Source: Halichondria panicea
Lineage: Eukaryota; Porifera; Demospongiae; Suberitida; Halichondriidae
DNA: 64,000 bases
Direction: 5' to 3'
Assembly (NCBI RefSeq): GCF_963675165.1
Contig: NC_087378.1
Span: forward strand, 2,887,525-2,951,524
Part shown: one piece after another, positions 39,695 to 60,080 of the stretch
Layout: every line of letters begins with the position of its first letter
Numbering within the stretch: position 1 is the stretch's first letter
The notes under the pieces: model-generated
Told to the model about the DNA's origin: nothing
Databases searched by the model: none
Seen by the model: the letters and a program-made list of their open reading frames with translations, nothing else
Made by a program: the position numbers and the translations under genes

Positions 39695-39994
39695 GATGAT
39701 TCTGAGCCTGATTCTGAGCATTAATTTTGCTGGTACAAAGTACACAACATTCATATTTTGTGGTTTTGCTGTTTTGGGTTTTGGAGTTGCAAGTGCACTG
39801 CAATCCACTGTCCCTCCACTATCTATGGTACAACCAAAGTACAACTGCACTAAATACGGCCTTGAATCGAGGCTACCACTGCACTATCCTGGAAGGGCCG
39901 CTAATTCATACAGTCTGGGGAAATCCCCTACAAGCCTTGCAAGTGTCTACACATAATAGTAATTAGGCCTCTATCCACGTGGCCTGCCAAATAC
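39695..39994. promoter_or_regulatory. divergent intergenic region DNA alkylation repeat gene / REV3L
   Basis: About 300 bp between divergent starts, and both genes are DNA-damage related. A bidirectional promoter would co-express base-damage repair and translesion synthesis; this is inference from arrangement only. Confidence 0.4.
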
Positions 39995-42900: not shown

Positions 42901-45900
42901 GTAAAGCTCAATGTCCAACCACGTAGGGATCACTGTGTACCGTGAACGTACTCTTCTTCTGTATACATTCCGTTTACTTAATTTATAAAAAAAGCAGCAT
43001 TCCCGCATCAAATGTTAACCTTTCATTTGTATGACCGCTATATACCGTGATACTAACTAAAGAAATTTATGCAAGCGGCTATCATATCACATACATGTAC
43101 TTTGTATCGCACAATTAATTCGAGGCCTATACAATTCCCATTGAAATCGCGGTGTTTGATCAAGAAAATAATAAAGATCGCGAACGTTTTCGGAGCCTTA
43201 AAAGATTAAATTGAGCAAATCGCATAGCTTACTGTTGTTTTTTTATACCTGATTTGGAGGCCAGTCCATTGCCTAAAGGCACCATACACCAGGCAACTTT
43301 CAGGCCTACAATGGTTGTAAGCAACAAATTGCCTGCAAATTTGCAAGCAACCCGCAAGCAACTCGTTGCATACAATACTTGTACCCTGACCTTTAAAATC
43401 AATGGTGGTTAAAAGTTTGTTGTTTGCTATTAGCTCTGTTCTACTGGTTACAACACTAAGGAAAAGGTGGATAATAGAACCGGAAAATGGATACAAAATT
43501 AATGAAAGCACCGCAGGTGCTGATGCCTCGGTGGAGATGTCAAAGCTACATAACATAAAGCTACTTAATAGCTTAATTTTATACACATGATGAAAATTTT
43601 TTCAATTTGTGCATGCAATCAAAGAGTGGGTAATCATCGACCATGATTGTTGTTAAAAACGATCGATGCCAAAGTTCAAGTCTAAAGTTAATGGCTGCCA
43701 TCAGCAGAGCCTTGCAGCTCTCTTCTAACTCTTGCAGCTACCAATAGCTAGCGTTCTAGTGCAGAGCTAACTACTAAGTAGAGTAGCAACACTCGGTAAA
43801 CAAGTTTGGCTACATGCTCTTCTGAAAAGGCTGCAATGGCATATCTATTCCAAGTAAGCAAAACTAGGCATAAGCTTGAGAACGAAGCATTATTTTGCAA
43901 ATCCACGAATTGAAATCCAAGAAAACATGACTAGAAGCCTATAGAAACTCTTACTTGCACTTCATTGATCCTTGAGCAGCTGTAGCAGTCTACACACACA
44001 CAAACACACTACCGTATACCTCGCTTGCGCATGCGCACCGAGGCATAATTATTGGACTATTGTAAAAGCAGGGTCTCTCTTCATACCAATTGATCAGTTC
44101 ACTAGCCTCTGCCACTCACAAATGGCCACTTTGATACGTGTTCAGATAATTATGACAACATAGGTAGTGTGGTTTAGTATAACAAAGAAATGATAAATCT
44201 TTAAAGGTTACGATGCTGTGTTCGCCCATGCAGTAATTATCAGTAGTAAATCAACTGTATACACTAGTCATCATTTTATATGCTAGATATTGCATGCTCT
44301 TTGCCAGCAAGGAAATTATCTAGGAGAAAGGGGCAGGGCGGCTCGAAACAATTTCTTGAAAACAATGAACAGTCATCAAGTTAGCTCGTGGAGAAGTGGA
44401 AAACAACTGAAAAATAGCCGATCAGATAGATAGATAGGAGCAAGAACTCTTCGAGCCGCCCTCAGGAATATCATGAACTGCTGGTAGGTCATTGTTTAGA
44501 GTCTTTCTCTAATATTTGACTAATAGGTTACTTATGAGGAGTACAACAGTATAGACGCATAAAATAATAGGAACAATGTCTTTCTTTCTCACAAAAACCA
44601 AAAATAATAACTCATGAATAATTCATGAGCAAACACTGCATCTCATCCTTTGATCTTTCAGGCAACAAGTTGCACACAATAGATTGTAGGAAATTTGTAA
44701 CATACATGAGGCAATTCATTGCAGTTGCCTGGTGTATGATAGCCTCGAGACCAGGCCGATTAAAATACGGCCTGGTCTCTATTGCATGGGTGATAGTGCA
44801 CATGCGCGAACTGAGTCACCCAGAATCTGGGTGACTCGTTATACTTTAGTAAACCTTTGTAAAATTAAACCGTAAACTAGTTTGTTTACTAGTTTCTTTC
44901 TGTATTAATTTTAACAAATACTTGTCTCCTGTGAAGCTGTGGCTTATGCTCTCTATTGCGTTGTCGAGAAGACTTGCTGGCTAGCTGTGGCCCTCTATGG
45001 TGTTGTCGAGAGGGCTTGCACACTAGTCTGAAGCCAGAAGAAGCTCTCATTTGTACAGAAACCAAGTTCAAAACATCACGACCATCCAACCATCATAGAG
45101 GTAGATGAGAGCCTCTTCTGGTTTCAGACTAGTGTGCAAGCCTTCTCGACAACACCGTAGAGGGCCACAGCTAGCTAGCTAGCTAGGCTATAAAGCTTTG
45201 AACATATACATAGTAGATAGTACGTGGGCGTGTATGGACCACGCCTATGATTAATTACACATGCAATAGGTACCAGGCCGTATTTTAATCGGCCTGGATT
45301 CGAGGCTAGGTGTATGATGGCCTTAATTACACTCTTCCGAGCCATTGCTTGACAGCTAGGGCATTGCCATTGAAGTACTACCGTATAGCTCGAAATTTTC
45401 GAGGCATTTATATTTCGTGGATTGGCCTCTAAAAGCATTTCGTTGCACAATGTTCGCGGAATGACTGCTTACCGGAAGCCACGCCTTTAAATAGTTATAG
45501 CAGATAATTCTAATTAAAAAACAATTTTTGTGGACTTAATTTTTGTGTAGGATTGCTAACCCACGAAATCCTCGAAAATTAAGCCCCTCGAAAATTTTGC
45601 GCTAGCTATACGGTATAATTATAATTGTTACGACACCATGTGTTGTTTTATTGCTCAATTAAACTTTGTAGCACAACGTATTTTGATTTGTACATGGTTT
45701 ATCACCGTCACATCATTAATTTTTTCCATCATGTTACAGTATGAGGGTCTTATCATTTTACAGTAGTAGCGCATATTGGCCTCTGCTCTAAATGGAACTA
45801 TTTATGTTCTTCGCGCAATTGACAGCTAGTGCTTACATACAGATCTATCGAGTAACTGTAGAATGTCAAAATTTAGATCAATGATATTATAATTTGCAAT

Positions 45901-48900: not shown

Positions 48901-51900
48901 CCAGAAACAAATCCACCCACCACTGGTTCTTTGATGGCCAGTCTCTCCAAGTATGACCTACCATCTGGTAGGCACCAGCAGCCATTTTGCAGAGACCCTG
49001 AAGATGTTCAGCCCCCAAAGTACGTTGCTCCCAAGTGTATAGTGTTAATTTAAATTTTAACTGGCATTTCTAATTTGCAGGGAAATTGGTGGTAGAATTC
49101 TTAAGGTCCCCTCAAGAATGGTGTGTTATCAGATCAGTGAAAGGGATTCTTGTCAATGTTATTCTCGACTGTCACACACATTTTTTCGCATGCTAGTATT
49201 TGTATTCCAGGATCCTCAATTTTGTACCTTTATAATTATTTAACTCAGCTTATTGGTACTTTGAGTCTTACCTACTCTCCCTTTTTATTATTAGGCGTAC
49301 GATCTGGAGGAGTTTCAGCCTACTTGTTCTAGAAACCACACATCAGAAATTGCCGACTTGTCTGTGAATGGACTCCAACGAATACAAGCGCTTCTGAACA
49401 TGTTTAGGAGCTGCTCCACTAGGCCTAAACAGCCACCCCCTCTGTGTCACCCACCTGATAAAGGAATTGGCAGACTATCGTTTTACGATGTTAATGATCA
49501 CAAGCAGGATGTTGTAACGAGGTCTAATTTTCTGCCTATTAAGAGGATAATTCTCACTCCGGTGAAACAACCTCCCTCACCTGCAAAAATCAAAAGTACA
49601 CTCAAAAATTCCTCGAAAAGTGATGTTAGTATTCTCCTTAATAACAAGACTAACTTGGAGGAAGTTCATCTTGAAGGCAAATCTACCTCAAATTCTGTGA
49701 TAAACATGTCCACTCCCCAGAAGCCTCTTATCGTGAAGCCTGATTCACATGATGTTGAAACTGAACTTTGTAAGCCCCAGTGTATCCTAACTAGCACACC
49801 TATAGTGAAAGAAAAAAATGCGTCAGTGAAGGGGGAAGTTGAGGAAAAGATAGCAAGTATCCCTTCTCACAATGAACACACAAGTAACAGGAGGCCTCAA
49901 CTGGTAAACACATAACGTTTGTGTTAGCTAGCATAGAGAGGCACTGTTAGGGTTTGTTTGTGATCATCTGTACGATATTTATGTAGGCTAATGGAGGGTG
50001 CTCCCTTCCCGTGTGCATGTGGTGTCACATTTCACTGTACGATTGATCATTGTTTTGCAGCTTCCCTTCACTCCAATCTCTCTGTCCGGTAAACGTGACT
50101 CCTCTCAACTTGACGGCCCTACCCCTAACAACACGTACGGTTTCAAAGTTAGCCAATCAGCGCTTCCATCAAGAAGTGACAGCCACCAGGTATGTATGCT
50201 TGTTATGCTGTAGCAGTGAAGATGTGCAAGACTTAGTTGGTTGAGATTAGCAAATTTCCCTGTCATTATTTTGTGTGTTGAAGCAGTTGCTATATCTTTA
50301 TTAAAATTGTGTATTTCTCCCAATAGGTACAGAACCTGACATGCATGAGCTTGGAGATCCACGTGAGAACTCGAGGTACTCTGAGACCCGATCCGGACAT
50401 GGACCCAATTCTCGCTCTCTTCTACTTCATTCACAATGACTGGCCCTCACAAGACCAGATCCATGTACAGGGAACCAACACTCGCCTGGGAGTCATAGCT
50501 GTTGATGGAACATTTGAACCACAGGGCCCTCTAAAAGAAACAACTGATGCTAATCCAGCTGGTGCTAAGGTTAAATATTTAGATGGTTGTGGGGTATCAC
50601 CTGACGTGACGGTTTCTTATGTGGCGTCTGAAATTGAGTTGCTGGACAAATTGGTTTTCCTCGTTAGGGAAACAGATCCTGACATCATTATGGGGTATGA
50701 GGTGACCATGTTGTCATGGGGATACTGCATTGATAGGGCTGCCCATCTGAACATCAATCTCACCAGTAAACTCTCCAGAATACCGAGTGAGCTATTTTAT
50801 ATTTTGTATCTACATGTTTCAAGTACTGGCTTCTATACTTATAAGTGCCCACCGATTTTGTTTTACTTTTTAATTACTTTGACATGTTCACAAAAGTTAA
50901 AAATTGATGTCTCCAATTAACTAATATCAGTATTACTATATTCTTTCCAGTCTCTTCTAGGGTAAAACAGCAACAGGGCGCGTTAGAGACCGCTCCTTGG
51001 TTGGGAAATGCCTCCAATGTCCAACTGGTGGGTAGGATCTCAATTAATGTGTGGAGACTTATGCGACATGAGGTTAGGGTGTGATAAAGTGCAGATACCT
51101 AAATGTATAGAGATATTTTAACATAGTTGTTTTGATGTTGTGTAGGTTGCTCTGAAGGTGTACTCATTTGAGAATGTGGCATACCACGTCCTGCATCAAA
51201 GATCACCATTGTTCTCATTCAAGACCCTAACCTTCTGGTACAGCCACCACACTCGACTCTATAGGTGAGCAGGACAGGACAATCAGGTACACATTGTGTT
51301 CATGTTTGCTTTTCCAATCCGGAAGCGCATGCATGACTGATGTCTATAGATGATGTTGTGCCTTTTATAAATGCCTTAATTAATTGTCTCAGATAAAGGA
51401 CTGTAGGTGCTGTTATCAAAAACCCGACCACAATTCACTTCAAAATACATACATGTACGTATTGCAGGCATAGGGTGCTGGAGTATTATATAAAGCGTTG
51501 TCAAGGAAACTATCAACTACTGGATAGTTTTAATCTGATTGGACGAACTAGTGAATTTGCTCGGCTATATGGAATAGAGTTTGAGAATGTGTTGGACCGA
51601 GGGTCCCAGTATAGAGTGGAGTCCATGATGCTGCGTCTGGCGAAACCTGCTAATTTCATTGCTGTCTCCCCGTGTGTTCAGCAGAGAGCCAAGTTAGTCA
51701 AACAAGATTGTGGCATGTAATTAAGAGTCTCATCGACATTAGCTACCTTATTGTAAAGGGGTACTAATTTTAGCGAATTTTGGCGAATAATTTATGAATT
51801 TCATTCTTTTGAGAGTATGCTAAGCAAGCTAGCCCTTTTTTCATCTGTATCTGACTCCAAACTTTCCATTCAACCTTAAAACTCATACTTGTACATCTTT

Positions 51901-54900
51901 TGAGATATATTGTGGTAATGAATTTGCTACTAATCCACCAAAATTAGTACCCTAAAAACAGAGAATAATCTGAAAACGCTAAATTACTACCCGTCTATAA
52001 TAGTAACATAAGGTATTTCTTTTACTATAATAATTATAGTATTGTGCTTTTTGTATAGTGGGCACTAGATTGCAAGAAGGTGTAACTTCGTTTTTAGTAG
52101 TTTGTGCATTACGTTTTCCATAGAATGGCTGCCCCAGAGTGCCTCCCTCTGATTCTGGAACCAGAATCAAAGTTTTATGCTGACCCTGTTCTGGTCCTAG
52201 ATTTTCAGTCACTCTACCCGTCAATGGTCATAGCATACAACTACTGTTACTCTACGTGTCTGGGTAGAGTCCAAAACATAGCACAGTGAGTTTATTAACT
52301 GGTAAAAATTGCAGAGGTGCGTGCGTTAGACGTAATTTTTCAATTCATAGATTTGGAGATTTTACCTTTGGAGCTACTTCTTTGAATATACCCAACCATG
52401 AGCTCAAGGTTTGTCCTGTGTGATCAGGTTTTATGTCTTGAAGTAAATGCCTGTTTCTATATTCACAGAAACTGAAAGACAGTGTTCACATATCCCCTAA
52501 CGGTGTTGCGTTTGTCAAGAGTAACGTTCGCCATGGCATCATGCCTAGGTATGTAATTGTTTGTATGCACTTGTGAAGGTCTTTGTGTGATTCTTTTGCT
52601 CTTGTGCTGATGATTGTGCTGTGTAACATGTAGGATGCTGAAAGATATTCTGGGCACAAGAATTATGGTGAAAAGCTCAATGAAGCAACACAGAACAAAC
52701 AGGGCAAGTATCCATTAACATTAATTTTAGCTGTACAGTGTATAGCATCTACTGTGATGATCATTTGTACTCAATCTTTCTTCTTAACCTACAGGCTCTC
52801 AATAGAATGCTTGATGCGAGGCAGATGGGTCTCAAACTGATTACCAATGTGACATACGGCTACACAGCTGCCAATTTTTCTGGACGAATGCCGTGTGTGG
52901 AGATAGCAGACAGTATCGTAAGGAAGGGTAGGGAGACTCTAGAGAGAGCCATAAAACTGGTCCACGCCACACCACAATGGGGGGGAAGAGTGGTGTACGG
53001 GGACACTGACAGCTTGTTCATCCTGCTCAAGGGAGCGAGCAAAGAGGAAGCATTTCGTATAGGCAGGGAGATCACTGATAGAGTAACCGCTGATAACCCA
53101 CCACCTGTGAAGCTCAAGTTTGAAAAGGTGTGTGTTTCTAACTTTAGATTTACATGTATGTATTCAACAAAAGTGAAAGTGTCTGGATGTGGCCAATCAC
53201 ATGTACATGTAAGGTTTTGGTTGCTTGGGTTTGGAACGAATAAGGTATCTATCTGTACAAGTGTATATTAGTAGTCAAACAGCAATGTTTTGGTTCTTAC
53301 ACGCTAGCACAGTTTTCTGAACACATGGCATGCCTGTTGAATGCACTGTCATTCCAGCTCTGAAAGTGCGTGTGACTCTCATAGCTTTGACTGCTGTTAG
53401 TACCACAACTTTCTGGTAGCCCAATAAATGCTGACTTCAAAGTATAGTGGTATCCTGTCCGTCTGACCACTACCGGTGTTATTGAGAACCCATGTTTGCC
53501 CGGATGTACTTCACTGCGAAGAATTGCCGTACATGCCGCCCTAAATGCCGCACGATCATTCCAGCTCTGAAAGTGCGTGTGACTCTCATAGCTTTGACTA
53601 CTATACATTGCTGGTAGCCCAATAAATGCTGACTTCAAAGTATAGTGGTAGCCTGTCCGTCTAACCACTACCGGTGTTATTGAGAACCCATGTTTGCCCA
53701 AATGTACGAAGAATTGCCCTACATGCCTCTCTTCCCCCCTGCAATTGTTTCAGGTGTACATACCATGTATCCTACAAACCAAGAAGAGATATGTTGGCTA
53801 CATGTACGAGAGTTTAGACCAATCAGAACCAGTTTTTGACGCCAAGGGGATTGAGACTGTGAGGAGAGATGGTTGTCCAGCAGTTGCCAAGGTGAGCGTT
53901 AAGTGTGTCTAGTTAGGATATGTGGCGCTCTCTACTATACAGCGAAATAGAATCCTTGTTGCAATGCCTGAGGTAGTTTGCTTAGTTAGCCAAACTAACA
54001 TTACAATTCACACAAACTGTACACACATGTATATTGGCCCATGCATGCATGTTTTACTCCACCCACAGGTACTGGAAAAGAGCCTGCATCTTTTGTTCAC
54101 TACTCGCAATGTGTCTCTTGTGAAGAATTACGTACAACGACAGTGTGGGAAGGTGTTGGATGGACGTGGTAATCTCCAGGAGTACATGTTTGCCAAGGAG
54201 TACAGGGGCAAGGAGTATTACCGACCTGGAGCATGTGTTCCTGCGCTGGAGCTCACCAAGTATGTTGCATTACATACATAATTATGTTCATTAAGTGTGT
54301 GAACCAGCCCAACAATAGCACTCATATGTACATGTATGAACAGTATACTAATATGTATGTTAGTATACTGTTACTAGTTCTGATCCTTATAGGGAACCCT
54401 GAAGCGTTAACAAGATGTTATAATTATGTACGATACATGCATTGTACGGTACATGCAATTTTGCATAATGGTCATCGTTTGGACTGGCTACTCAGAATCT
54501 TAATTAATGGTGTACTGCGGTTTTTGTGTGTTTAAACATTATATGGAAATTGCATAACTACTGTAATAATCTTATTTGTAGAAAAAACCAGTTTTGGTTT
54601 TGTACATTTGACCTGCAAAGAAGATGTGAAATCATTCCATATCTTTCACAACTACTAGAGCACTGAGTGCTTTGGTGAGCATGGAAGCCAGTAGCTCGAT
54701 CCCAGGCCGCACTGAAGATGGGCCTGGTATTGACTGTTTGCCCATGCGCCACCTATCCCCAGAAACTGGGGAATTTGAATAACATCGTATAATTATACTT
54801 AGTAAAACAATGACATCACAACGAACAGAAGTGGATTGAAGGAAATACCTACACTTAGCCTGCTATGTTAACAAAAGACTCACAGCCTGCAACAGTGTGG

Positions 54901-57900
54901 ATGACAATCGTCTGAACGGAGTGAAGGCTGACAATAGCCTATATATGGACAGGCCACACCCATCTGATAACCTTGGTGAAATTTAGAAGGAAATAGCTGC
55001 TGCAACCAAACCTATACAGCTCTGTCTCTAGCTAGCTATATAGCTCTGTGTATGACTTTGAATTTGTATGTATGTTTTATTCAGGATATTTTTCTGGTAA
55101 AATGTCAGTTCAATGGGAAACTTTACGAGTAAATCGTTCATTTTGCGCATGCGCAAGCAGTCAGTAGCAGGCCTCCTTTCTAAAGCCTTGTGAAGGAGGC
55201 TAGGAAGCCAGCTGACAGCAACTAACAGGAGCAATAACACTTAGAGGCATGCTGAACTTTTACTGTCAGATCAGTGTGCGCATATGGCGCATTGAGAGCG
55301 GCATTTTAGTGGTCTATGAGACATGCACTGGGACTAGGATCCACAACTGAGTCAGCAATTAAAGAAACCTGGAATAATTATTCCCATGAAAACATGGTTC
55401 GCTGTATTGCGCATGTATAATGTGAAGTGCTTCAAATCAAATCCGTGTGAGCTATATAGCCAACGTGAAAGTTCAAGCAGGTTTTGTTTACTTTTATTCA
55501 ACAAAGCCTTTATGTCAAAATCTATCGCAGTTAAAATACTTTTCCATACTGTAAACGCAGCGCGTTGGCATCTAGGTGAGCATACAAACAAACACACTGA
55601 CCAGCCAGCTACTATAATCTGCGCCCGCCTACACGCCTCAGGTTAATTATCCTCTATTGCAAGATTACTCTCGTTCGCATACTTGTTAATACCCGCAAAA
55701 TAATTATGTTATACATGTATGTATCTTGGGTAATGCATATAATATTATAGATGATTAATTTTGTCATAATAAATTGACGGATGATGTAATGCCTTCCTGC
55801 CACATATTTTTGATGTCTATAGTATTTAAACGCAGTACGTAGTTGTTTGTTCCACTCTCAGTGTAACTTTTTACAATGAAATCATCAGGAGCTTTTTGCT
55901 TTATTTTCTTTATCTTCTTCGTTGCTGTATATGGAGGTAAGAAAACATTGCTCTTTCTCTATGGATCACGTTTGTAGACCGTGCTAGTGTTAGGTTGATC
56001 AATATGTTGGTCTTTCCCCATTATAACATTAACTGGGTGTTCTGTTTCAATGTAGTTCGTGTCCCACGACTGCAAAGGAGCATCAAGATCTCAGAGGAGG
56101 AAGGCAGTGTGACGTACTACGATGTCCTTCGAGGGAGGGACGGTCTGCCTGGTATGAGTGGGGAGAAAGGAGAGCATGGAGGAAAAGGGGTGGTTGGTCC
56201 ACCTGGTTCTCGTGGTCCAATCAGCGGTGGAGTGGTCTACACTCGTTGGGGCAAGAGCTCTTGTCCTAACACTCCAGGAACTGACCTGCTTTATGCTGGT
56301 AGGGCTGGAGGGACTTTTCACAGTCATGAAGGAGGTGGAGCCAATTATCTCTGTATGCCAGAAGACCCCGAATATGACTCATCTCTTCGGTATCGGCCTG
56401 ATACCCAAAATGTTGCACAAGTTTGTGGAGCCGAGTATGAGAGTCCTCTACAGGGAAGTCATGACCACAATGTTCCTTGTGCTGTCTGCTTTGTCCGTAG
56501 CCGAGAGGTTGTTCTAATGATCCCAGCTAAAGCGTCTTGTCCTCCATCTTGGACTCGAGAGTACTATGGTTATCTTATGACTGAATACAGAGGAATTTCT
56601 AGCAATATTCGAGGTCGTACCATGTTCGAGTGTGTTGACAAGGACCAAGACTCAATTCCTGGAAGCGCTGTAAACACAAATGGCGTTCTTTTCTATCACA
56701 CTGAAGCATCATGCAATGGTTTGCCCTGCCCTCCATACAATGAGCGCCAAGAGCTGAACTGCGTTGTGTGCACTACATAGGACATTTTTTATATAAAGAC
56801 TTGTAGATCAGGGTGGATATTAATTAAATTTTGTAAACTATCTCCTAACTATTCTGCCTATGCTTGTGTTTGGTATGGTGAAGTAGAGCATGCATCATTA
56901 AAAAAAAATAATAATAAAAGGTAAAGAAATAATTATATGGAAGTTGACTTCTTACGTTTAATACTAGATTACACATCATTCTCCCTATTCATAAATGTAC
57001 GTGGCTCATAAATAATATTTACCTCCTCCACTCTGAAATGTCGTTGCCACATGCGATGTTTTTCTTCAATTTTGTTGCCGTATATTACCGGGTTTCGAAT
57101 ACATAGTTAATCGTTTGCAAATGACACAAATGTCAGACCTATTGCATTACTAACTATTGCGAATTGCATGCGCATGCTCACTCTTTGCCTGTCTTCCGTT
57201 TGCGAACTGTGCGAAAAGTTATCGAAAGAGCCTCACATTCGAAACCCGATATACGATAACCCTATTTAATTTTTTTAATGCAGGCAAGGGTTGCTAGTTG
57301 ACAAGAGATCTGAACCCCGGCAGTCAGAGAGAGTGCCGTATGTGATTGTGTACGGGTCCCCTGGTCAGCCCCTCATTCAGCTAGTGCGTAAACCAGAAGA
57401 GCTCCTTGCTAACCCAGGTCTGAGGCTAAACAGTGTGTACTACATAACCAAACAAATACTGCCAGCAATGGACAGAACTTTCTCTCTCCTTGGAGTCAAT
57501 GTGAGGCAGTGGTAAGTCATTGTAGTGTTTAGATCATGCTTGTCGCAAATAGTGCAATCCCATTGGTCACAGTTAGGTGTCTAGAAATTAAACCTAGGTT
57601 CAGAGTACCATGATTGGCTATCTAGCGCATGCATTGTATCTAGCTCACACAATGTTTAAAGTTTAGCCTCAGAGAACAGTTGTTGGGCTGTTAGTATGTG
57701 TGTGAGATTCCATGTGGTGGTTCAGAATAGCACTCTCGCTGCGCTCGGGATATTTTCAGTTTCAAAATCCCACGGATTCCTCCGAAACAGTGTATGTATA
57801 ATTATCAAAACTAATAGTGCAAGGTGGCCAGGTGTTGATTCTGCTCTAGCTCACATTATGATCTTAACAATGATTTTGGTACTTCCAATACAGTGTACGT

Positions 57901-60080
57901 TAGGAGTTGAATGCTGGGTGCCCATCAGTTGCTTGTGCATTCTAGTCTTGACATGCGTTTTAGGTAGCCTCGTCCCCAGGCTTTACTTTTTCTTGTTCTT
58001 GTCTAGCTCTCAATATTAAATGAGCTAGAGATGATAGGAGGCAGTAAAAAAGGAAATGATGGATGTGAAAGAAAAAGTAAAGCCTGGTATGTGAAGTCGC
58101 GTGATCCACATACATTTTTATGAACGTGGGCATATGTAGCCCACAATCGTGACGTGGGTATTCTCCCACACATTAAGACATAGCTAGAACATCTACCAAA
58201 GTAAGGCCAGGAGCAGAGACCACTGAACCAGCGTGCCCAAGTCCGATAGGTAGTAGATGATAATGATGATTAAGCTATTATCACAATCTAGTACTAGTAG
58301 GTATAGCTAGTTTGTATATCACATTGAACTGCTTACCAATTCCAAGTGTATGGCCATATATGCATGTCCACCAGTACTGCACAAAGTGTATTAGTCATAG
58401 ATCAGGTGGGCAGTCCAATATCTCAACGTCTACCTGCCCACACTCAATTTCACCCTTCTACCACTCGTCTACTGTCACGCGACTTTGCATACTAGGCTCT
58501 CCTTTTTCTTAACTTTACCTTTTTTATTCCTCCAATTAATACGATTGTGACAAAGATGTGACAAAGAACAGAGAGCCTGGAGCCTGGGACCGAGGCTACG
58601 TTTTAGGGTCATTTAGGATTTAGCTGTGTATATACCGTATAGCGGGTATATTTCGAGGGTATAAATGCTCGTGGTTTTCGCTGATCAAGTATCTACCGCA
58701 AACATTTATACCCACGATCGCGTGCATGCATGCTGCAGGCTGCTGCGAAAGTTTATACCCTCGAAGTATATCCGCTGTACGGTAGTCGTACTCTCTCTAA
58801 CTGTTTATGCAGGTATGACGATATGCCCCGAGTAATCAGAGCTCCTACCACATACAGTTCAAATAGAGCACAAGGCACTCTGGGTCAGTATTTTGCCACA
58901 ATGCATTGTCCAGTGTGTCACCAGCTGACAGTTGAAGGAGTAGTGTGTGCTCAATGCAGAACAGACTCCCAAAAGGTTGCCATTGTCGTGGGTGTTAGGG
59001 TACTTGGTGCTGAAAAGATACACTGTGACCTGTTAAATGTAGGTTGGTCTTTCATTTATGACTATACAATTGCAATGCACATGAATTTCGCGCTCACCAA
59101 ACCCTTAGTATGAGCTGAGCTAGCCTCGATTCCAGGCCGCTTGAACAAGGCGGCCTGGTATACCTTGTATGCGCATGCGTGTACATTACCCCAAAAAGGG
59201 GGTAATCCGTGTATTTGTGGATACTGTCAGTAAAATAAACCGTATACTATTTGTATTCTGATTTTACAGTCTGTTACATAGAAGTATTGTGCAAAGATGA
59301 CTGAGTTCTTACGCCCTTTATTGTATCAAGCCAAGTCTCTACTTAACGACACCCTACACTGTAAGGCTACAGATGTTATAGGAAAGGCATGATGTGTTCC
59401 TGTGGGTCCCCTGATGAGGCTGTGGTAATATAGACCAGGCAAGTGTTCTGCTACTAAATCTTGCCTTTATGTTCGACAAGAAGTCATTGCTGAAGATAAA
59501 GAAGCTAATGATTACTCCTGAAAGCTTTTAATTAATAAGCTTTAACTCGACACTCAGGAAGTTATTCACTCAAGATCTACTGATGTATTAAAGAGTCCAC
59601 CACTCTTCCTAGCTGGCAGCTCTAGCTGTCTGGGAGGCTTTCTTAAACTGTCTCTTTGATAAACAGAGCTAGAAGAAGCAACACTGCTGCAGCATAATTA
59701 TTCTACTTTGATTAGTGTCTCTGAAAGCTGCCATTGTGGTCACATTGCCATACGTATTATTCCCTTTTGTAACTTTGTCCGTTTTTTTACAATTTGTATG
59801 ATGAAATTGTTGTCAATTATTTCGCGCATGCGCATACAAGGTATACCAGGCCGCCTTGTTCAAGCGGCCTGGAATCGAGGCTAGAGCTGAGCCTACCACT
59901 TATCTAATCTACTGTGTGTTGTTTTTATACATGCAGCTATGCCAGAGTTGTGTTGGAAGTCAAGACAGTGATTACTATACCAAGTGTACGTCATTTGACT
60001 GTCCAATACTTTACAGACGAACTAGAGCCCAACAAGAGCTGCCTTCTTCTGAAACATTTACAGACTCCATGGTTTTATAA
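39995..60080 (+). CDS. REV3L: DNA polymerase zeta catalytic subunit
   Basis: Twenty-six exons: 39995-40407, 40500-40574, 40668-40825, 40926-41049, 41113-41207, 41314-41415, 41724-41808, 41942-42162, 45911-49019, 49081-49120, 49295-49903, 50061-50189, 50327-50786, 50951-51072, 51146-51264, 51468-51692, 52124-52285, 52351-52408, 52469-52548, 52634-52703, 52795-53127, 53754-53891, 54069-54259, 57284-57511, 58813-59038, 59937-60080 (7716 nt, 2571 aa; human 3130). The B-family polymerase of translesion synthesis. N-terminal domain (VPVIRIFGATSSGQKTCLHI), then a giant 3.1-kb exon of disordered linker, a REV7-binding-like motif near residue 1560, and the polymerase core: DFQSLYPS (D about 2055), LDARQMGLKL, YGDTDS (about 2220-2225). 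CysA is at 2481/2484/2494/2497 and the Fe-S CysB at 2526/2529/2541/2546. Intron 20 is GC-AG. Start uncertain: ATG 39995 or 40034; the pyrimidine tract before ttgcctgtttag (40089) could instead be an acceptor for an upstream exon encoding MFS. Confidence 0.95.
43283..44738. mobile_element. putative larger TIR element in REV3L intron 8
   Basis: catacaccaggcaac at 43283-43297 and its reverse complement at 44724-44738 bound a segment with gcaacaa/ttgcaagcaac sub-repeats at both ends. It encloses the inverted CGAGGT repeat and abuts T1, which inserted in its right TIR. No target duplication confirmed. Confidence 0.5.
43497..44052 (-). repeat. CGAGGT-type repeat, copy 4 (REV3L intron 8, inverted)
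   Basis: Reverse complement of the family: it begins aatgaaagcaccgcaggtgc and ends gcgcatgcgcaccgaggcat. It lies inside a larger inverted-repeat-bounded segment (43283-44738). Confidence 0.8.
44740..45308. mobile_element. TAGCCTCG-type TIR element T1, 9-bp target duplication (REV3L intron 8)
   Basis: Ends tagcctcgagaccaggccg and its inverted form cggcctggattcgaggcta. Flanked by the direct repeat ggtgtatga at 44731-44739 and 45309-45317. Inside is a long near-palindrome (about 44979-45178). No coding capacity, so non-autonomous. TIRs with 9-bp duplications recall Mutator-like elements. Confidence 0.85.
45379..45615. repeat. TACCGTATAGC-type MITE (REV3L intron 8)
   Basis: Ends taccgtatagctcgaaattt and ttttgcgctagctatacggt then a, with ttcgaggc/cccctcga inner arms. 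Confidence 0.85.
48196..48978 (+). repeat. in-frame tandem duplication inside the giant REV3L exon
   Basis: Two units about 124 codons apart (48205 against 48577 at the shared gataacgtatcatgtgatga). Both contain SCDxFH/LHLAVTSESE, SDSLEASMREQH, TLKRDNNIRLRAVD, ISSSLL, DGYATQK and KDTVIVTP. Unit 2 has an extra 20 or so residues (PSMQRVVSCTSIWNS...) before DGYATQK. Confidence 0.92.
49550..49579 (+). other. candidate REV7 (MAD2L2)-binding motif in REV3L
   Basis: Exon 11 encodes ILTPVKQPPSP, matching the REV7 safety-belt ligand pattern (hydrophobic pair, x-Pro, three residues, Pro-Pro-Ser) seen in vertebrate REV3L as ILKPLMSPPSR. Its position between the linker and the polymerase core agrees with the vertebrate arrangement. 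Confidence 0.75.
52704..52794 (+). other. GC-AG intron of REV3L (intron 20)
   Basis: The donor is AGG|GCAAGT and the acceptor ctacag. Only this junction keeps phase 0 and joins KQHRTNR to ALNRMLDARQ as the family requires. GCAAGT is the standard form of a rare GC donor. Confidence 0.88.
53340..53701 (-). repeat. two-copy direct repeat in REV3L intron 21 with an open antisense frame
   Basis: A unit of about 150 bp appears twice (around 53350-53505 and 53559-53701) with very few differences. The minus-strand frame stays open across both and the joining sequence (134 codons), repeating GKHGFSITPVVVRRTGYHY and SQSYESHTHFQSWND. No start context, splice site or known family recognised. Confidence 0.7.
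54692..55202. mobile_element. TAGC-type TIR element T3, 9-bp target duplication (REV3L intron 23)
   Basis: Left end tagctcgatcccaggccgc; the right end, ggaggcta, is degenerate. Flanked by ggaagccag at 54683-54691 and 55203-55211. Confidence 0.7.
55876..56780 (+). CDS. short-chain (spongin-type) collagen, nested in REV3L intron 23
   Basis: Two exons, 55876-55936 and 56056-56780 (786 nt, 261 aa). Signal peptide MKSSGAFCFIFFIFFVAVYG, a short linker, then only about ten Gly-X-Y triplets (GRDGLPGMSGEKGEH to GSRGPI) and a Cys-rich C-terminal domain: VVYTRWGKSSCP, GGGANYLCMPEDPEY, EYESPL, HDHNVPCAVC, CPPSWTREYYGYLM, MFECVD, ending CVVCTT. This matches the sponge short-chain collagens (C4/spongin class), secreted matrix proteins of the exoskeleton or attachment structures, related to type IV collagen C-terminal domains. 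It lies on the same strand as REV3L with its own upstream region (a TATTTAAA at about 55824) and an AATAAA near 56914, so it is an independent nested gene. Confidence 0.93.
57081..57256. repeat. ATATCGGGTTT-type palindromic element, copy 2 (REV3L intron 23)
   Basis: tattaccgggtttcgaatac at the left and cattcgaaacccgatatacg at the right, with inner gcatgcgcatgctcactctt shared with the copy at 5069. Confidence 0.78.
57965..58598. mobile_element. TAGCCTCG-type TIR element T4, 9-bp target duplication (REV3L intron 24)
   Basis: Ends tagcctcgtccccaggcttt and agcctgggaccgaggcta. Flanked by cgttttagg at 57956-57964 and 58599-58607. Confidence 0.83.
58633..58784. repeat. TACCGTATAGC-type MITE (REV3L intron 24)
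   Basis: Ends taccgtatagcgggtatatt and tcgaagtatatccgctgtac then ggta. It lies just before the acceptor of exon 25. Confidence 0.85.
59121..59883. mobile_element. TAGCCTCG-type TIR element T2, long TIRs and 9-bp target duplication (REV3L intron 25)
   Basis: Nearly perfect TIRs of about 58 bp (59121-59178 against 59826-59883), each carrying an inner short palindrome (aggccgcttgaacaaggcgg). Flanked by gagctgagc at 59112-59120 and 59884-59892. This is the best preserved member. Confidence 0.9.

Follow-up and report, generated by a model that had tools for sequence, protein, structure and literature searches.

Target site duplications of 9 bp are typical of Mutator-like elements (MULEs), which range from 8 to 11 bp in this respect, while hAT elements duplicate 8 bp and Kolobok elements target TTAA. 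Terminal inverted repeats are a defining mark of AcademH, the helicase lineage of the Academ superfamily, which has reportedly been found in animals and fungi, going by the title of a paper by Kojima (2020, Mob DNA 11:15). According to the section of PMC10045372 on these lineages, AcademH "generates 9 or 10 bp TSDs" and AcademX generates 3 or 4. Here we consider four short elements, T1 to T4, within a 64,000-nucleotide stretch of the sponge Halichondria panicea (NC_087378.1, positions 2,887,525 to 2,951,524; hereafter the window). From sequence comparisons we propose, with a probability of roughly 85%, that they are non-autonomous members of an AcademH-type group of DNA transposons that is heavily amplified in this genome.

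All four elements lie on the plus strand, have TAGC...GCTA termini and are flanked by their own exact 9-bp repeats. T1 (569 bp, 44740..45308) lies between copies of GGTGTATGA at 44731..44739 and 45309..45317, T3 (511 bp, 54692..55202) between copies of GGAAGCCAG at 54683..54691 and 55203..55211, T4 (634 bp, 57965..58598) between copies of CGTTTTAGG at 57956..57964 and 58599..58607, and T2 (763 bp, 59121..59883) between copies of GAGCTGAGC at 59112..59120 and 59884..59892. When repeat lengths from 5 to 13 bp are compared, the flanks agree exactly only at 9 bp, and none of the four shows the 8-bp duplication of hAT elements. A scan of the window for 9- or 10-bp direct repeats around TAGC...GCTA, allowing 30 to 8,000 bases between the repeat copies, returned T1–T4 only; identity of two random 9-mers from the window arose in 24 of 2,000,000 draws. 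The initial annotation of this DNA, made from the sequence alone, had described the same coordinates, ends and duplications, all of which the scan recovered, and T3 does have the most degraded ends of the four. That annotation was also right in seeing T1–T4 as genuine and independent DNA transposons that are non-coding and have their autonomous parent somewhere beyond the window. A lone right tip of the same group, GCCTTGAATCGAGGCTA, is found at 39859-39875, where visual inspection shows neither a partner nor a duplication.

Pfam searches locate family-B DNA polymerase exons in the window at 50345-50917 (PF03104, E=2.7e-10) and 52738-53268 (PF00136, E=1.3e-27). T4 and T2 flank a short Cys-rich segment at about 58814-59010, without a Pfam match, which we take to be a piece of the C-terminal region of REV3L, a DNA-repair gene product; T3 occupies the interval from the polymerase exon to this segment, and T1 sits 0.6 kb ahead of a 1,036-aa ORF that has no Pfam match. 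The earlier placement of all four elements in REV3L introns is thus only partly supported, by the Pfam exons and by the positions of T3, T4 and T2 relative to the exon and the putative C-terminus; an intron location is unsupported for T1. The four would now be passengers, in introns or between genes. On the same strand, the interval from the polymerase exon to the putative REV3L C-terminus also contains an ORF of 261 aa (55995-56780) that has Gly-X-Y repeats and gave no match in a Pfam search; it presumably resembles the short-chain collagen-like proteins of sponges and is possibly a nested gene.

The tips are very common in this genome: TAGCCTCGNNNCCAGGC has 3,084 + 3,007 exact matches in 131.5 Mb (6,091 exact tips), against none for a reversed control. 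Among the first 100 tip places listed, 17 convergent pairs are less than 1.3 kb apart, and reading all 17 gave exact 9-bp duplications for 10, an exact 10-bp duplication for one (L004, by eye), a duplication with one mismatch for one (L008) and none for five; L006, L007 and L016, all with exact duplications, have common flanks and so represent one site. Two of the five pairs without a duplication (L003 and L012) join ends from different subfamilies. Outside the 17-pair count, L017, a copy of L014, contains one pair with one mismatch and one without a duplication, L019 contains a single pair without a duplication, and L018 and L020 contain no end pair. Tabulating the repeats that flank inverted pairs, as had been suggested for the window elements, thus shows 9-bp duplications outside the window as well, at most of the 17 pairs read. 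Four of the loci (L008, L013, L015 and L037) belong to a homogeneous 1.07-kb subfamily whose subterminal 28-mer occurs 264 + 278 times, and which has been recently active, since L015 and the copy in L037 are 99.2% identical. Three odd spacings among the long pairs of this subfamily turned out to be separate or rearranged copies, with no duplication-bounded coding element among them.

Which autonomous elements share these ends? The initial annotation had favoured Mutator-like transposition, and had proposed looking for a larger element with the same terminal inverted repeats that encodes a MULE-type transposase. The genome does contain 31 matches to the MULE domain (PF10551), two of them within elements that have 9-bp duplications, and a 9-bp duplication falls inside the 8–11 bp range of MULEs, without being specific to them. 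Nevertheless, in none of 21 loci (10 + 11 of the 31 matches, read as stretches of 4.5-7.5 kb that stop short of some far flanks, such as the left one of L035) is the MULE domain bounded by TAGC ends. Eight of the 21 (L027, L028, L029, L030, L032, L035, L036 and L043) do contain TAGC tips, or tip-like matches with up to three mismatches, but these belong to nested micro-elements or occur solely on one flank of the domain. Where the ends of a MULE could be resolved, in two cases, they are CGCTGTGACTATTC, whereas loci encoding a helicase and a DUF6589 protein, described below, are bounded by TAGC ends in four of four cases. A larger MULE with the same ends is thus missing from the 21 loci read, and we regard it as very improbable that T1–T4 are MULEs.

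The two resolved MULEs form a family with CGCTGTGACTATTCTTACGG ends (L029 1672-5415 and L032 990-5447) and exact 9-bp duplications, AATAATTAA and AAAGTTTTA; like the TAGC elements of the same genome they combine inverted-repeat ends with 9-bp duplications, and they differ in the ends themselves and in the PF10551 domain. At L033 (C2:976000-983000), a MULE-domain ORF of 809 aa has the same score as three other matches, of which one is also 809 aa long and two are 452 aa long, and the 7 kb read there showed no convincing inverted ends. A Merlin parent was likewise considered and rejected: none of six loci read, from 24 matches to PF12762, is enclosed by TAGC ends, and the two that were resolved (L053 and L055), which are also inverted-repeat DNA transposons, differ in having GG ends and 8-bp duplications. 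One element of the TAGC group, 1,093 bp long (L051 669-1761, duplication CACCACCGG), directly abuts a Merlin-type transposase frame and apparently inserted into it.

The route to the full-size elements was a helicase-like fragment in 1.1-kb TAGC elements of L029 and L037 (PF00270, E=1.3e-6, for a peptide assembled manually out of two frames). A genome search with this fragment gave 613 candidates, and all 150 of those scored match. Three of the matches were read: L071 and L072 are non-autonomous copies of 1.07-1.09 kb with exact 9-bp duplications, and L073 is full-size. We had also entertained the fragment, which is RecQ-like, as a captured host gene; the genome search and the C14 locus suggest instead the beginning of a helicase gene that belongs to the elements themselves.

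Each of the four full-size loci followed has TAGCCTC ends at its boundaries, flanked by an exact 9-bp duplication. These are the C14 element (L073; 5,643 bp, duplication GGTAAACAC), the C5 element (L076/L094; 5,821 bp, TGCCGGCCT), the C1 element (8,550 bp, CCTCTGTGG) and the C12 element (L075; 6,353 bp, CATCATCAT), the last duplication being weak evidence because this simple repeat is found again close by. For C1, C12 and C5, the left tip and both genes were seen first, and the right end together with the 9-mer of the left flank was then found within the next 3-3.5 kb. The right tip of the C1 element is TAGCCTCCGC instead of TAGCCTCG, and this element probably contains an insertion, as there is a further helicase match inside it. 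The C12 element probably holds an insertion as well; within it, at L075 3499-4766, are two ORFs that we presume to resemble a tyrosine-recombinase (Crypton-like) element.

The full-size relatives, of 5.6-8.6 kb, share a layout of two genes arranged tail to tail on opposite strands, one for a RecQ-type helicase and one for a DUF6589 protein. In the C14 element, Pfam identifies DEAD (8.7e-13), Helicase_C (6.7e-12) and RecQ_Zn_bind (5.9e-6) domains in the helicase, and the best solved relative of its C-terminal part in the PDB is WRN (E=4e-29), with RecQ chains matched also; helicase-like reading frames are present in L074, L075 and L076 too. The opposite gene gives two DUF6589 matches (1.9e-15 and 2.7e-31), and the C14 element also yields a zf-AD match (3.9e-4) that is below its Pfam cut-off. 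DUF6589 is a domain family without an assigned function, and comparison of the DUF6589 piece with solved structures returned no relative. By eye, candidate DDE motifs can be picked out across the four loci: GDN in three (all except L076), GGD in all four and HNEHIN in three (all except L075). We put DUF6589 forward as a candidate transposase domain, the protein being the putative DDE transposase of these elements. A literature search for DUF6589 found nothing, which does not prove that its role as a transposase is absent from print.

The two genes belong together. Across the genome, 92 DUF6589 matches fall into 63 clusters. Within 6 kb of 30 clusters lies a helicase match that faces them, in 26 of the 30 at a distance of 238-553 bp. 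Random placement would give a mean of 0.17 such clusters (a rough figure based on approximate contig sizes), and a number of the 30 appear to be mutual copies. The other 33 clusters are without a facing helicase match inside 6 kb; the 30 of 63 is a lower bound, because at least the C12 element is counted among the 33 although the fragment search shows its helicase.

A helicase combined with a 9-bp duplication points to AcademH. Duplications of 9 or 10 bp accompany all four window elements, all four full-size elements (one as a simple repeat) and 10 of the 17 census pairs, plus one of these at 10 bp; a superfamily-2 helicase is indicated by the L073 domains, by the WRN and RecQ structures and by the frames in L074-L076; and terminal inverted repeats are present. 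AcademH membership thus fits on the helicase and on duplication length, DUF6589 being the candidate for the transposase. The elements thus resemble AcademH as helicase-coding DNA transposons with target duplications of 9-10 bp, and are distinguished by helicase and DUF6589 genes that lie on opposite strands; the AcademH section of PMC10045372 is silent on the micro-elements and modular palindromic ends that we describe below. The Mutator label, plausible but unsupported, gives way to a rarely described transposon group.

A RecQ helicase also raises the question whether T1–T4 could instead belong to a Kolobok lineage. As portrayed in an excerpt of PMC9587614, KolobokH encodes a RecQ helicase, and in one red-alga Kolobok the helicase is on the complementary strand. 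Yet the same excerpt places KolobokH only in fungi, and the duplications here are 9 bp long and varied in sequence, at odds with a TTAA target. We consider a KolobokH-like origin highly unlikely and retain the assignment to an AcademH-type group.

The ends of T1 and T2 connect the window to the full-size elements. T2 looks like a 763-bp derivative of a C14-like element: its left 150 bp are near-identical to those of the 5.6-kb C14 element, with little change other than in the loop of a terminal palindrome (P1, see below), and its right 60 bp align as well. The left 150 bp of T1 align with the 5.8-kb C5 element, and its P1 loop, ATTAAAATA, equals that at the right end of the C5 element. T3 has its kin in the right-hand part of L012; T4, of a subfamily with a long hairpin behind the tip, is kin to L003. 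Both represent other subfamilies, and no full-size parent of either was met among the loci followed. The earlier statement that only the ends are conserved is consequently partly wrong, given that the left side of T2 preserves at least the outer 150 bp seen in the parent type and that the left 150 bp of T1 align too.

The shared ends, exact 9-bp duplications, two-gene layout and likeness of T2 and T1 ends to two full-size elements can all be read from the sequence, and they suggest how the short copies may have arisen and moved. T1 and T2 would be products of internal deletion in full-size helicase/DUF6589 elements. The transposase would bind the TAGCCTCG tips, and insertion at a 9-bp staggered cut followed by fill-in would create the duplication. 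The helicase may assist by opening DNA or the palindromes near the ends, and T1–T4 would have been mobilised in trans. The full-size relatives in this way show the source of the short non-autonomous copies.

Behind the tip, many ends share a series of palindromes: P1 (CCAGGCC-loop-GGCCTGG), P2 (like GCGCATGCGC) and P3, the last usually at one end. In T1, the left P1 is CCAGGCCG-ATTAAAATA-CGGCCTGG (44751..44775) and P3 is GTCACCCAG-AAT-CTGGGTGAC (44815..44835); in T2, the left P1 is CCAGGCCGCTTGAACAAGGCGGCCTGG (59132..59158) and P3 is ATTACCCC-AAAAAG-GGGGTAAT (59185..59206); P3 of T3 is at 54754..54774. The P1 loop is the most divergent part between the near relatives T2 and L073. An alignment of P3 from 11 distinct ends, chosen by hand with near-identical ends and those lacking P3 excluded, pairs in 79.8% of cells versus 66.8% in shuffles, with a covariation score of 0.362 versus 0.163 (0/500 shuffles as high in either case). 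Six of the nine pairs have changed on both sides (11/500 shuffles as high), and the number of further pair types is ordinary (143/500). Sliding the alignment lowers both the paired cells and the covariation, although one slide reaches five both-sided pairs and another an equal number of pair types. The covariation is suggestive only, because we chose the rows ourselves and read the structure from those same rows, and the T2 palindrome, which is out of register in the alignment, counts against it. The first 150 bp of L029b and L037b are distinguished by three substitutions and, near the end, an indel; two of the substitutions make up a compensated pair in P3, which one templated repair event could explain as well as selection. 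These data are suggestive of terminal palindromes that change in sequence yet largely stay paired.

The smallest copies are little more than tips around a palindromic core. A tip-core-tip pattern allowing 34-58 bp occurs at 232 places in the genome, with lengths of 36-58 bp among the 50 listed. Exact 9-bp duplications flank four of a first sample of 14, the remainder being imperfect or absent, and 11 of a second sample of 17 picked for repeated forms; three of the 11 are at one site, and three others of the second sample share another site with one of the first. One exact 36-bp core is present at 34 places, all of which were read, including four already in the second sample. The 9-bp duplication is exact in 19 of the 34, has at most one mismatch in 25 and at most two in 26, and one more place has an 11-bp repeat. 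Wrong flank pairings (n=1,122) gave no duplication that was exact or had up to one mismatch, and three with up to two. Both tips are intact in 26 of the 34, 16 of them with an exact duplication. The 19 exact duplications are all mutually different, and only one pair of places (L138 and L139, both without a duplication) has flanks in common; separate insertions are thus indicated for the copies of this core.

These insertions could have been larger when they occurred, having since collapsed in place and kept their old duplications, so that micro-elements never moved at their present size. Two P1 palindromes contain 8-bp direct repeats, and a deletion between these is expected to yield the 47-bp form; the length of the palindrome centre does vary among micro-elements. 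In-place collapse would nonetheless have had to produce the very same 36-bp core and junction at 34 places. Of these, 25 have their own duplication (up to one mismatch), the 19 exact ones all being different. Moreover, the overlap at this junction is a mere 2 bp, yet by eye 11 of the 50 listed are 58 bp long versus three of 47 bp; the 11 have the same or a near-identical core, and two of them are identical neighbours that may be copies. Collapse in place strikes us as the less probable account, albeit one of some weight, and the single common junction favours movement of the 58-bp units as such.

T1–T4 are ordinary non-autonomous copies, and it is the micro-elements and palindromes that are worth specialist follow-up. 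As a speculation that we would not ourselves bet on, AcademH-type transposition might move palindromic units of ~40-58 bp, scarcely more than a pair of tips enclosing a hairpin, and recognise terminal palindromes partly by their pairing, with the RecQ-type helicase exposing them and DUF6589 as the catalytic domain. If 58-bp units truly moved, they bear on the minimum DNA length for a cut-and-paste transposase, and the genome in any case provides a large natural series of shrinking elements. The hairpin elements of sponge mitochondria, as outlined in part of PMC2800124, may offer an analogy. A literature search on micro-elements does not prove their absence from print. Finally, L029 1763-1864 contains two micro-elements in tandem, of 57 and 36 bp, with three copies of the 9-mer GCAACTTCC, as if the second had reused exactly the same target, and the 36-bp micro-element is found at this same 9-mer in the MULE loci L027 and L028.
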